The position numbers and the translations under genes were made by a program. A stretch of 64,000 nucleotides of DNA from Niastella koreensis GR20-10. Lineage in GTDB: Bacteria; Bacteroidota; Bacteroidia; Chitinophagales; Chitinophagaceae. Numbering within the stretch: the first letter of the stretch is position 1; each line of letters opens with the position of its first letter. Of the stretch, positions 26,525 through 47,573 are shown one piece after another. The DNA is taken from the NCBI RefSeq assembly GCF_000246855.1, contig NC_016609.1, forward strand, positions 5,158,744-5,222,743, written 5' to 3'. The notes beneath the pieces are model-generated. The model did no database searches and was not told the origin of the DNA. It saw nothing but the letters and a program-made list of their open reading frames with translations.

Positions 26525-26733
26525 GGCAGACGGCAAACGGCAGACGGCAGACATGAAAGGCAGTAGATCGCCTACCTGTATTCACCCCTGTCAACTCTGT
26601 CAAATCTGTCAACTTTATCAACGCTATCAACTTCCTGGTCAACCGATCAACTGGTCAACGTGTTAACATGTCAACGTATTAACGTGTTAACGTGTCAACG
26701 AGTCAACGAGTCAACGTATCAACCTGTCAACCC
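26525..26733. repeat. short-word repeat element: GGCAGAC cluster plus (GTCAACGT)n array
   Basis: Two parts. First, 26525-26552 is four slightly varied copies of GGCAGAC/GGCAAAC. Second, 26590-26733 holds about 17 units of 8-9 bases of the form GTCAACGT, ATCAACGT or GTTAACGT, starting as 9-mers and changing to 8-mers. The last unit supplies the TGA stop of the sulfite-dehydrogenase relic (26727-26729). The gap contains no gene. The GGCAGAC words recur inside tilS and ispE. Confidence 0.85.
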
Positions 26734-37195: not shown

Positions 37196-37207
37196 AACAA
37201 TGATTTT

Positions 37208-37307
37208 GTGAGTAGTGAGTAGTCAGTAGTGAGTGGGTTCATGACTATTCAGAAGTCTGAATACTAGCGAGCTTACTCACTACTGACTACTCATTACCCA
37301 CTACTAG
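37208..37307. repeat. inverted-repeat element of GAGTAGT words (copy 1)
   Basis: A perfect 18-bp inverted repeat, GAGTAGTCAGTAGTGAGT at 37217-37234 and its complement at 37275-37292, extended by further varied words on both sides (37208-37237 and 37273-37307), around a spacer with TTCAGAAGTCTGAATACTAG. A near-identical element occurs at 39711-39797. The right edge supplies the TAG stop of kdpF (37304-37306). It lies in the leader between kdpF and kdpA. Confidence 0.92.
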
Positions 37308-39709: not shown

Positions 39710-39710
39710 A

Positions 39711-39797
39711 GTCAGTGGTGAGTAGTGAGTGGGTTTCCGATTGTTCAGAAGTTTGAATAATAGCGAACTTACTCACTACTCACTGCTGACTACTCAC
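39711..39797. repeat. inverted-repeat element of GAGTAGT words (copy 2)
   Basis: Left arm GTCAGTGGTGAGTAGTGAGT (39711-39730) pairs with 39771-39790 at 18 of 20 positions. The spacer TTCAGAAGTTTGAATAATAG is almost the same as in copy 1. The right edge supplies the TGA stop of the response-regulator gene (39794-39796). Copies 1 and 2 flank the kup gene. Confidence 0.92.
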
Positions 39798-41584: not shown

Positions 41585-42223
41585 ATGAGTATAACCCTGA
41601 TCATTATTATTATCACAGTTCTGGTTTCTATTACTGCGTTTTCGAATGATAAAGTTTTCAATGATTTTATTTTTGACCCGCCCGCAGTAACTTATAATAA
41701 ACAATGGTGGCGTTTTTTAACCTGCGGACTTATTCACGCCGATTACGGGCACCTGATCTTTAATATGTACGCGTTGTATATGTTTGGCGAATATGTGGAG
41801 CACAGTTTTATCCAGGTGTTCCAGGAGAAAGGAAAGCTGCTTTACCTGGTATTATATATAACTGCCCTGTTTGCCTGTTTGGTGCCTACCTATTTAAAAC
41901 ATCGCGCCGATAATTATTACAGAAGCCTTGGCGCTTCCGGCGCTGTTTCGGCAGTGATCTTTGCCTTTATTATTCTTAACCCATTGGATAAAATGGGATT
42001 GCTCTTTTTACCTTTAAGAATACCTTCCTTTATTTTTGGATTCCTGTACCTGGTGATCTCCTCTTTCCTCGATAAGCGGGGTGGCGGCGGCATCAATCAC
42101 TCGGCCCACATTTTTGGAGCACTGTATGGGATTGCGTTTTTGATCTTTACCGGTTATGTCTTTTCAGATTATCCTGTATTGGCGGCGTTCATTCAACAAA
42201 TACGCACATATATTGGCTATTAA
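41585..42223 (+). CDS. rhomboid-family intramembrane serine protease
   Basis: A 212-residue membrane protease that cleaves membrane proteins within helices. Catalytic Ser118 in GASGAVSA and catalytic His175 in HSAHIFGALYG are visible, with the substrate-binding motif HADYGHLIFNMYAL (51-64). Six helices are predicted. The end overlaps the convergent tilS gene by a few bases. Confidence 0.92.
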   Translation: MSITLIIIIITVLVSITAFSNDKVFNDFIFDPPAVTYNKQWWRFLTCGLIHADYGHLIFNMYALYMFGEYVEHSFIQVFQEKGKLLYLVLYITALFACLVPTYLKHRADNYYRSLGASGAVSAVIFAFIILNPLDKMGLLFLPLRIPSFIFGFLYLVISSFLDKRGGGGINHSAHIFGALYGIAFLIFTGYVFSDYPVLAAFIQQIRTYIGY

Positions 42224-43701
42224 CCGGTAAACTGTATCCGCAGCACCTGTTTTGTTGACCCGGTTATTTTAAACCGGTCATCGATCCGCAGGCCTACCAC
42301 CCACAGGATCTTTTTATTACTTTCGAGCACCCATACTTTTTCCTTATCGGTCATGGATAATTTCTGATCGATAAAGAAGCGGGCGAGTTTTTTCTTCTTT
42401 TTTAACCCGAGCGGATAAAAATAATCGCCCTTTTTCCACTTGCGCAGCAACAAGGGGAACTGTAAGGTGTTTTGATCAATTAATGCAATAGCAGGGTCAT
42501 TGACCAATTGCACATTGCTGCTATTTATCTGCGTCAACTCCAACGCCCCATTTTCAAATACGATCCGGTCTTCATCGGCATCTATTGCCAGGGTTTGCGC
42601 CTGTTCAGTTTGCGCCGCGGCAATAATCAACCAGCGCCTGTTTTTTATAATGCGATGGGTAGCCGATTGTACATAGCGGCCCGATTCGCTGCCTAATAAC
42701 TTAATCACTTCATCTACCTGGGCTGCCGAAAAACCAAAGCCGCTGATGATCTCGTATACGATGGAATGCAGCGGTTCTGACTTTTGCAATTTCAGGATGG
42801 GAATGTGCACTTCTTCGCCCTTGTATTCCAGCAATTTTTTCTTGTGTACGGCAAGGGCCTGTTCGTACAATTGTTCCATATCAACAAAGCGGCGCAGGTT
42901 ACCGGCCAGGTTATTTTCTGCTTCGGGATAAATATTTTGCACCAGCGGAATAAGCTGGTTGCGGAAATAATTCCGGGAATATTTGTCAAGTGCGTTTGAG
43001 CTGTCTTCTACCCAGTTCAAATTATTGTCGGTGGCAAACTGTTTCAACTCCTGTTTACGGGCAAATAACAATGGCCGAACAATCTGGCCTTTTTTGGGCA
43101 ACATGCCCCGCAAACCATGGATGCCGGTGCCGCGGAAGAAATGCATCAGCATGGTTTCTATGTTGTCGTCGAGGTGGTGGGCAGTGAGTAGAACAGTAGG
43201 CTGTTGTAAATTGAGGTTTCCCGGTTCTAAGTCGTGAATCGTGAATCGTGAATCGTGAATTGCCGATTGCTGGGTTCCAGGTTCCAGGTTCCAGGTTTCA
43301 GGTTTCAAGTTTGCCGTTTGCCGTCTGCCAGCCTGCCCCGACCTGCCGGGGTTTGCCGGGTTCAGCAACCCTGCAAACCAACCATACCTTAATTCCCTGG
43401 CGGCTTCCTGAATAGACAGTTTATGATTTTGCGCATATGACGCGGTATCAAACTCTTTCCTTAAAAATGGGACCTTGTAATTTTGGGCAAGCTGTTGTAC
43501 AAAAGCGGCATCGCGTTCGCTTTCATCTGCCCTGAGTTTAAAATTACAATGTGCAATAATAAATGAATAGCCTGCCTGTTTGCACAATTCGCACAAAACC
43601 ACGGAATCGATACCTCCGCTCACGGCCAGTAGTAAGGTATCGCCCGTTGAAAAAAGATGATTGTCAGAAATGTATTGCTGAAATCGTTGCAGTAAGGTCA
43701 T
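42220..43701 (-). CDS. tilS: tRNA(Ile)-lysidine synthase with in-frame repeat insertion
   Basis: A 493-residue enzyme that modifies C34 of tRNA-Ile to lysidine so that it reads AUA. N-type ATP pyrophosphatase P-loop SGGIDS (28-33) and the motif LTAHHLDDNIETMLMHFFRG (about 172-191) are present, followed by TilS substrate-binding and C-terminal domains. Between FAGLL (112) and TVLLTAHH (169) lie about 54 extra residues encoded by short-word repeats; related proteins go almost directly from one to the other. Catalytic motifs are intact, so the insertion may be tolerated as a surface loop. Eight bases upstream is a TPR gene in the same direction. Confidence 0.94.
   Translation of the reverse strand: MTLLQRFQQYISDNHLFSTGDTLLLAVSGGIDSVVLCELCKQAGYSFIIAHCNFKLRADESERDAAFVQQLAQNYKVPFLRKEFDTASYAQNHKLSIQEAARELRYGWFAGLLNPANPGRSGQAGRRQTANLKPETWNLEPGTQQSAIHDSRFTIHDLEPGNLNLQQPTVLLTAHHLDDNIETMLMHFFRGTGIHGLRGMLPKKGQIVRPLLFARKQELKQFATDNNLNWVEDSSNALDKYSRNYFRNQLIPLVQNIYPEAENNLAGNLRRFVDMEQLYEQALAVHKKKLLEYKGEEVHIPILKLQKSEPLHSIVYEIISGFGFSAAQVDEVIKLLGSESGRYVQSATHRIIKNRRWLIIAAAQTEQAQTLAIDADEDRIVFENGALELTQINSSNVQLVNDPAIALIDQNTLQFPLLLRKWKKGDYFYPLGLKKKKKLARFFIDQKLSMTDKEKVWVLESNKKILWVVGLRIDDRFKITGSTKQVLRIQFTG
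43212..43362. repeat. word-repeat insertion inside tilS, in frame
   Basis: On the plus strand: four CGTGAAT words, then about five GGTTCCA/GGTTTCA words, then three TGCCGTT words, and a GC-rich hairpin-like part (CCTGCCCCGACCTGCCGGGG). On the coding strand the second block gives GGCAGACGGCAAAC, the same word as at 26525. No stop codon is produced in the tilS frame. Confidence 0.9.
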
Positions 43702-46670: not shown

Positions 46671-47573
46671 TTGATAGTATTTCCAAATTGTAAGATCAAT
46701 CTCGGGCTTCATGTTGTTAGCAAACGTGAAGATGGTTACCACAGCCTGGAAACCATTTTTTACCCGTTGCCTTTAAGGGATGCGTTGGAAGTGGTGAAGG
46801 CAGACGGCCCTCCTACGCAAAAGCTTCGGCGGGCAAGGCAGACGGCAGACAATCGTGAATCGGCAATCGTGGATCGGCAATCGACAGAACAATCCGGGCC
46901 GGTCGGGCTTCACTTAAGCGGTCTGATTGTGCAGGGTTTGACAGCAGATAATCTCTGCGTTAAAGCTTACAACTTACTCAAGAAAGATTTTCCTCAACTA
47001 GGTGACATCGAACTATACCTGCACAAGGCTATTCCTATGGGCGCCGGACTGGGTGGCGGTTCTGCCGATGGCGCTTTTACCCTATCAGCACTCAACGAGA
47101 AATTTCAATTGAACCTAAGCAGCGAAAAGCTGTTGGATTATTCCCTACAATTAGGCAGTGACTGTCCCTTCTTTATCATCAACAAACCCTGCTATGCAAC
47201 AGGCCGCGGCGAATTGCTGCAAAGCATACCACTGGATCTGAGTACTTATTCATTCCTGGTAGTGCATCCAGGAGTACACATCAATACAGGCTGGGCTTTT
47301 TCACAACTCTCCCCTGCCCCATCACCACAACCTTTACCCGAAATCATTCAACAACCGGTAGCCAGCTGGCGTAATAACCTCAACAACGATTTTGAAGCGC
47401 CGGTTTGTAAACATCATCCAGCCCTGCAAGCCATCAAAGATGCATTGTATGATGCGGGCGCCCTCTATGCCTCCATGACGGGCAGCGGCTCCTGTTTCTA
47501 TGGCATATTTCCTAAAAATCAACTTCCTGCCCTGCAATGGCCTGCCCAATACGCTGTATTTGAGGTGAAATAA
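46671..47573 (+). CDS. ispE: 4-diphosphocytidyl-2-C-methyl-D-erythritol kinase with in-frame repeat insertion
   Basis: A GHMP kinase of the MEP isoprenoid pathway (300 residues). The N-terminus IVFPNCKINLGL fits a TTG start at 46671; the ATG at 46635 lies inside the preceding gene in another frame. The ATP-binding motif PMGAGLGGGSADGA is intact, as is the C-terminal TGSGSCFYG. Between about residues 46 and 78 an extra stretch (QKLRRARQTADNRESAIVDR and more) interrupts a region that is normally short. The insertion comes from word repeats like those of tilS. Confidence 0.92.
   Translation: MIVFPNCKINLGLHVVSKREDGYHSLETIFYPLPLRDALEVVKADGPPTQKLRRARQTADNRESAIVDRQSTEQSGPVGLHLSGLIVQGLTADNLCVKAYNLLKKDFPQLGDIELYLHKAIPMGAGLGGGSADGAFTLSALNEKFQLNLSSEKLLDYSLQLGSDCPFFIINKPCYATGRGELLQSIPLDLSTYSFLVVHPGVHINTGWAFSQLSPAPSPQPLPEIIQQPVASWRNNLNNDFEAPVCKHHPALQAIKDALYDAGALYASMTGSGSCFYGIFPKNQLPALQWPAQYAVFEVK
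46803..46904. repeat. word-repeat insertion inside ispE, in frame
   Basis: The plus strand has GGCAGACGGCAGAC followed by varied AATCGTG/AATCGGC words to about 46884, preceded by CTACGCAAAAGCTTCGGCGG. The same GGCAGACGGC word is in tilS and at 26525, and the AATCGTG words match the CGTGAAT block of tilS. The frame stays open. Confidence 0.88.

Follow-up and report, generated by a model that had tools for sequence, protein, structure and literature searches.

In-frame heptad repeat arrays in a variable loop of TilS in Niastella koreensis and its relatives

Small repeats that enter genes have been described in several systems. Rickettsia palindromic elements (RPEs) are stem-loop elements of 105–146 bp with terminal inverted repeats, found between genes or in frame within them, and titles given in the same paper refer to in-gene palindromic elements in Wolbachia and Methanocaldococcus (PMC2229807). 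TAACTGA heptamers include a pair that lies towards the end of a putative purC gene of one Bacteroidetes strain, and their few cases in open reading frames (ORFs) mostly concern short hypothetical proteins or protein ends (MacGregor 2015, PMC4679880). GGGAATC heptamer repeats occur in Xanthomonas and Nostoc, with intragenic cases in Xanthomonas (PMC4692102), and the P6b stem of the Nostoc tRNA-Leu intron carries degenerate heptads on both stem sides, with pairing kept (PMC4476775). Archaeal Borgs have fast-evolving tandem repeats in ORFs that yield disordered protein, with units all divisible by three (PMC9879509), and in the REP/RAYT system a tetranucleotide tag (GTAG or CGTC) lies next to a palindrome (PMC3733652). 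Heptamer repeats in ORFs were already known elsewhere, in small numbers. Among the literature matches listed, a scope that left most subscription papers aside, there was no report of heptads inside tilS or in Chitinophagaceae.

The stretch analysed here (the window) comprises 64,000 nucleotides of Niastella koreensis GR20-10 and belongs to a single contig of 9,033,684 bp. Its minus strand encodes tilS, tRNA(Ile)-lysidine synthase (493 aa; 42220–43701), recognized as an ORF without a stop, by Pfam and by structure match. Pfam identifies ATP_bind_3 (3.1e-47), split in two stretches around an insert, and TilS_C (8.3e-9); the PP-loop domain with its SGGxDS motif and the TilS C-terminal domain are both intact around the insert. 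The gene is single-copy, the other three matches in the genome being two readings of the repeat stretch and one repeat at 7.12 Mb. An AlphaFold model (40 aligned TilS sequences; mean pLDDT 87.8) matches Aquifex TilS 2e21 with Z 29.4 and rmsd 2.3 over 305 residues. The initial annotation had pointed to about 54 unexpected residues at 43212–43362. Coordinates, alignment of homologues and the model bound the extra loop to residues 114–168 (55 residues; 43198–43362, minus strand), so that the ends first given were right within a few codons. The loop is flanked by FAGLL (residues 109–113) and TVLLTAHH (residues 169–176), and in the model it lies between the helix at 97–113 and the strand at 170–172 leading into TAHH; residues 118–162 are the sole segment with pLDDT below 50. 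In PP-loop folds, this helix-to-strand connection is remote from the sheet edge that carries the active site.

The loop is built from short iterated words, as had been proposed. A lag scan detects one lag-7 (heptad) array, in frame in tilS, at 43224–43329, and Tandem Repeats Finder reports TCGTGAA x4.1 at 43232–43260 (100% match) and GGTTCCA x4.6 at 43273–43304 (96%). Read along the coding strand, a GC palindrome module (NPGRSGQAG) is followed by A-rich heptads and then by T-rich ATTCACG x4. The module (54 nt; 43306–43359, minus strand) is 96% identical to genome positions 7124916–7124969 (E 1.5e-18), a second copy that looks non-coding, its only open frame being of 127 codons. Within NPGRSGQAG lies a GC palindrome of a dispersed family (43331–43351, minus strand), whose pattern, CCCGACnnGTCGGGnCAGGC, has 28 matches in the genome, some sites being counted once per strand, whereas the reversed pattern has 0. 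The A-rich arm (43273–43304, minus strand), with GAACCTG/AAACCTG heptads, lies within KPETWNLEPG; the A-rich heptads of the loop include AGACGGC, AAACGGC, AAACTTG, AAACCTG and GAACCTG and translate as RRQTANLKPETWNLEPG. A near-identical peptide occurs in NamZ of the same genome, the two proteins having TAN[VL]KPETWNL[KE]PGT in common through a 59-nt match at 90%; this match and the 54-nt one are the longest of the tilS insert elsewhere in the genome. The T-rich arm (43232–43260, minus strand), with its four ATTCACG heptads within AIHDSRFTIHD, is shared with the TilS loop of a close relative, a metagenome-assembled genome (MAG; L009/G295). As an exact match, the word GTGAATCGTGAATCGTGAA is present at two places only in 9.03 Mb, in tilS and adjoining one transposase gene. 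The peptide QTANLKPETWNLEPGTQQSAIHDSR is a predicted tryptic peptide within residues 114–168 of TilS.

The remainder of TilS is conserved. In comparisons with four relatives covering the 306 nt before the loop and the first 600 nt after it, dN was 0.05–0.12 and dS 0.5–2.5; because dN/dS is under 0.1 in these parts, tilS is under purifying selection. The earlier observation that the frame stays open in a conserved gene is thus confirmed, with no stop in a single-copy tilS. The insert itself appears to be translated, judging from the open frames and this selection.

RPEs are nearest to these arrays in behaviour, being likewise small dispersed repeats that are both intergenic and in frame in conserved genes, where the protein tolerates them. 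Unlike RPEs, the repeat here is a degenerate 7-nt word, and the sequence of the TilS loop changes between species. The TilS-loop arrays share no recognizable element of ~100–150 bp common to copies, and the window's tilS loop has no long stem-loop with terminal inverted repeats, folding as its mononucleotide shuffles do (z −0.2). The GC palindrome module is nearer to an RPE, yet it is just ~20 nt. The parallel with RPEs drawn in the initial annotation consequently holds for the intergenic and in-frame copies, but not for a fixed sequence or an unusual hairpin. Like the TAACTGA and GGGAATC repeats (LSSR/STRR type), the arrays consist of 7-nt tandem units in clear excess, mostly intergenic and under-represented in genes; unlike in those studies, which concern one word or consensus, there are many related words and no fixed heptamer. 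The annotation knew of no such case in this group of bacteria, a view qualified, at the level of the phylum, by the heptamer pair in putative purC (PMC4679880). In contrast to the TAACTGA ORF cases, the arrays here are internal to conserved enzymes and recur at one loop across genera. Nostoc P6b is similar in having degenerate 7-nt motifs at one tolerated variable place, with shifts between motif classes; it is a stem of intron RNA, whereas the present arrays lie in protein-coding sequence and are mostly without pairing. Borg repeats are also rapidly evolving tandem repeats in ORFs that give disordered protein, but the TilS-loop unit of 7 is not divisible by three.

Loop arrays were sought in 74 genomes of the family, with one or a few taken from a genus, out of 285 that have a TilS match; 67 of the 74 passed the anchors. 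From the relatives' names, the family was taken as Chitinophagaceae. An array was scored at a lag-7 identity of at least 16/21 by a loop finder that itself required an open frame. Lag-7 arrays were present in the loop in 30/67 anchored genomes and 18/48 genera, and 37 genomes and 30 genera had a loop without one. Other lags gave 0 arrays (lags 5, 6, 9 and 10) or 1 (lag 8) in the same 67 genomes. Scanned whole, the 7 family loci that failed the anchors showed an array in the loop in one case and elsewhere in two. Arrays elsewhere in tilS were found in 11/67 genomes, all in the C-terminal part ahead of a ...FPL motif, a second array-bearing loop of the protein, and one of these 11 has another near the N-terminus. 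No internal stop was seen among the TilS matches listed, which are part of the 285. All of the nearest relatives (L009–L017), in a first alignment, have lag-7 stretches in the loop (17–21 of 21), with loops of 20–63 residues. Their heptads are mostly their own: N. soli has TCTGCCG, N. yeongjuensis CTCTGCC, N. vici ATTCACC, Niastella sp. OAS944 ACTCACC and N. populi ACTCGCC, whereas the MAG L009 has the ATTCACG x4 of N. koreensis. Array-bearing loops range from 15 to 71 residues, and sequence and length vary even inside a genus; the loop is variable also in relatives without arrays.

Arrays in other genera fit the heptad consensus of N. koreensis. When a consensus derived from 136 intergenic arrays of this species was compared with controls of column-permuted units, 11/26 TilS arrays of other genera fitted it at p<=0.05 and 22/26 at p<=0.5. 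Outside the family, assigned by title, whole-gene scanning of 50 TilS loci revealed two with arrays, both in Flavobacteriaceae MAGs and both in the C-terminal half, which rules out that TilS arrays are confined to one family. The anchored scan outside the family had given 0/27, because 23/50 loci failed the anchors. The TilS loop is a recurrent hot spot, and the heptads in it differ among most species; its content does not reflect one insertion of one element, and in this respect the earlier proposal does not hold as stated.

The same words are abundant between genes, as had been suspected from the window; an AATCGTG/AATCGG heptad array found by Tandem Repeats Finder and the scan at 46850–46883, between called genes, uses words as in tilS. 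To quantify such arrays, the window and 100 further stretches, each of 20 kb (2.064 Mb in all), were scanned with a threshold of lag-7 identity of at least 17/21, and genes were called with a small purpose-made codon-usage caller. Lag 7 gave 160 arrays, the counts for lags 6, 8, 9 and 10 being 4, 71, 24 and 0; a Markov-simulated copy of the sample contained 0 lag-7 arrays. By extrapolation, the genome-wide total would be ~700. Called genes, which make up 84% of the sample, held 24/160 midpoints, the other 136 being intergenic. Accepted internal arrays numbered 5 in 1,411 called genes, tilS included. Gene-end arrays were treated as mis-called ends (L119, L123 at 3806, L148, L156, L157, L158, L161 and L163), and an array whose left side is without coding signal (L246) was left out before the counts. 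Also omitted were a palindrome pattern inside what by eye is an apparent calcium-binding-type repeat, not an insert (L294), and, from the Pfam scan, a locus without clear family (L303). Two loci below the coding thresholds of the palindrome scan, tilS and L304, were counted as coding from ORF or Pfam evidence. The heptad consensus is degenerate, A-[AG]-[AT]-N-[CG]-[TG]-[GC], and neighbouring arrays within 150 nt are arranged A-rich left and T-rich right in 41/65 pairs, with the reverse in 4. The arrays are thus mostly intergenic, often as pairs of A-rich and T-rich arms, some of them around a conserved core. Intergenic array windows (the first 80) fold more stably than shuffled sequence, with a median z of −1.77, versus −0.36 in 60 array-free spacers.

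A search for the words in other ORFs, which the initial annotation had suggested, identified further genes with heptads or palindromes. Clean empty sites exist for a PabA-like amidotransferase (Pfam GATase), with 36–43 extra residues with heptads in 4/10 genus genomes, assigned via their TilS loops to N. koreensis, N. soli, N. caeni and N. populi. These inserts comprise A-rich heptads and a middle part, plus T-rich heptads in three of the four carriers. The other 6/10 genomes encode an uninterrupted 189-residue protein reading VQ[VI]INR[DS]KPLF, giving exact empty sites. On a tree of TilS and PabA without loops, with several nodes at just 50–67% support, a hand count needs four changes, and the site was therefore probably filled or emptied more than once. 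In several relatives the empty site contains AATCGTG or a similar word, and for two heptads in six related genomes it fell within the best-scoring 0.2 to 12% of positions, a result that is suggestive only, as it concerns one site with the best of ~20 positions taken without correction. Two further copies exist of the PabA palindrome together with its AATCGTG-type neighbours; one is intergenic, and the other lies at the margin of a called gene.

Other proteins carry such stretches as well. In NamZ, the sequence following the hydrophobic N-terminal stretch shows turnover within the genus, and five FecR paralogs have heptads and/or palindromes in a loop after LLEGSV, LLEGRV or LLQGSV, three being identified by Pfam (P0003, P0004 and L304) and two by likeness to those three (L115 and L116). 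Two FecR genes ~19 kb apart (4297360–4297407 and 4316135–4316182) agree in their double-palindrome insert and in the residues on either side of it, which points to duplication or gene conversion. Further ORFs with an internal heptad or palindrome stretch encode an ABC ATPase (L247), an Lhr-type helicase (L293), a GH2 protein (L296) and a GH127 protein (L117). One further candidate insert, PPPRQVGEAGGRPKPR in thyA, was rejected, the loop in 8 relatives being shorter or filled with other GC-rich, partly palindromic sequence; thyA is thus evidence for variable GC palindromes, not for heptads. Across 9 genus genomes this one thyA loop differs by species, and several have GC-rich, partly palindromic sequence, different each time.

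If translation had shaped the arrays, stop codons might be avoided in them, and this idea was rejected. Among 101 intergenic arrays, the A-rich strand has an open frame in 60% and the T-rich strand in 89%, and off-frame stops are no rarer in TilS than in open intergenic arrays (A-rich 0.079 vs 0.068; T-rich 0.023 vs 0.027), leaving no signal beyond the frame being open. Because open frames are cheap and off-frame stops are not additionally avoided, we regard the arrays as merely tolerated and do not claim that translation shaped them.

The reading that we favour, and hold to be reasonably probable, is that tolerant loops repeatedly take up dispersed heptad and palindromic repeat DNA, or let it grow in place, and that it is translated there as a neutral disordered linker. 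The simplest account is probably local growth and replacement of 7-nt units, with help from copying among sites that have words in common, the result being tolerated in loops and at protein ends only. Local growth is suggested by units that differ at fixed sites and by the AATCGTG-type word at the empty PabA-like site; copying is suggested by the 54-nt module at 7.12 Mb, the PabA palindrome at two places and the double palindrome in two FecR genes. A short stretch matching the heptad vocabulary would seed tandem duplication of 7 nt or template switching with other copies, and some blocks of 50–60 nt would be transferred whole. Purifying selection would then purge frameshifts, stops and sites in folded parts, the survivors being loop inserts with a total length that is a multiple of three. 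Unit turnover would continue, so that a different array is expected at the same site in most species, and the loop would be translated as a disordered, probably neutral linker. Against this reading stand the 37/67 family genomes with an array-free loop, the lack of extra stop avoidance and the absence of heptads from RNase P RNA and tmRNA in 9 genus genomes.

A more far-reaching version, which we put forward tentatively, is a diversification of loops across the family. A shared 7-nt vocabulary that normally forms intergenic hairpins would repeatedly be copied into, or regrown in, the same loops of essential genes across Chitinophagaceae, and rarely in other Bacteroidota, possibly by active template switching or RAYT-like copying, giving each lineage new translated sequence.

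Bacterial REPs are moved by an enzyme, for example the REP-associated Y1 transposase, and the same is suspected for RPEs. A strict mobile element of this kind, with heptad-armed or palindromic elements transposed into genes by an enzyme such as a Y1 transposase, would account for the 96% identity of the 54-nt module at two places, for a class of intergenic pairs and for the heptad pair beside one of two Y1 transposase matches. Among 36 heptad pairs separated by short spacers, 12 form a cluster with a common ~35-nt core present in both orientations (family A), and 8 more group more loosely, and the pattern for the family A core has 16 matches in the genome versus 0 when reversed. Pair clustering places two family A copies in the window, at 37205–37300 and, between convergent genes, at 39710–39794; the core in both is flanked by AGTAGTG-type heptads. 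However, TilS inserts are unlike each other in most species, and the family A core is absent from the N. koreensis tilS, PabA-like and NamZ inserts, where the best fits leave 17–20/35 mismatches versus 8 in another copy. An unsystematic look noticed no target-site duplication. There are two Y1 transposase matches (PF01797); a heptad pair adjoins one, and none is present in the 3.2-kb locus of the other. By a rough estimate, one transposase beside one array is a ~8% coincidence at the observed array density. On balance, transposition of this kind is unlikely. The Y1 transposase concerned (5623007–5623342) lies between ORFs that by eye resemble aroB and DAHP synthase, and the pair directly adjoining it contains the only exact GTGAATCGTGAATCGTGAA outside tilS.

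It is less likely still that the loop arrays are selected for a function, such as binding or regulation by the heptads in DNA or RNA, or a useful disordered linker in TilS. One loop is hit repeatedly (18/48 genera) with a vocabulary common across genera, and folding is clearly more stable than in shuffles for 6/30 TilS loops with arrays (z −2.8 to −6.0), but the median over all 30 is 0.03, 30/48 genera have no array, and sequence and length are unconserved even within a genus. Finally, it is very improbable that this is just a variable loop whose low complexity arose by chance, or an artefact of assembly or reading frame: indel-rich loops are common and this one varies also in array-free relatives, but the excess sits at period 7 in both the genome and the family lag scans, period-7 arrays are seen in separate assemblies of many species, the TilS matches listed have no internal stop, and the genome is one contig whose size agrees with the published one (PMC3751351).

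A 7-nt unit fits the triplet code badly, as each gain or loss of one unit shifts the frame. Arrays are nonetheless found inside tilS, a PabA-like enzyme, NamZ and FecR regulators, and tilS is called essential in Burkholderia cenocepacia in one study (PMC10128029). Such loops offer a natural record of non-coding repeat DNA becoming protein, with full and empty sites matched in one genus, and they make the neutrality of repeat-derived sequence testable. They also call for caution, since TilS length or loop sequence is unsafe for annotation or phylogeny of this group.

A second short tandem class, with 8-nt units, is present in the window at 26587–26732; 5/71 of the lag-8 midpoints in the genome sample lie in called genes. 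Heptads were sought in two structured RNAs as well, in parallel to the Rickettsia and cyanobacterial cases, and RNase P RNA and tmRNA had none in 9 genus genomes each, the tenth (G295) being without a full match. RNase P RNA length varies from 426 to 489 nt across species, and rnpB of N. koreensis (1133166–1133625) contains CTCCCGACTTGTCGGGAG, which resembles the dispersed GC palindrome.
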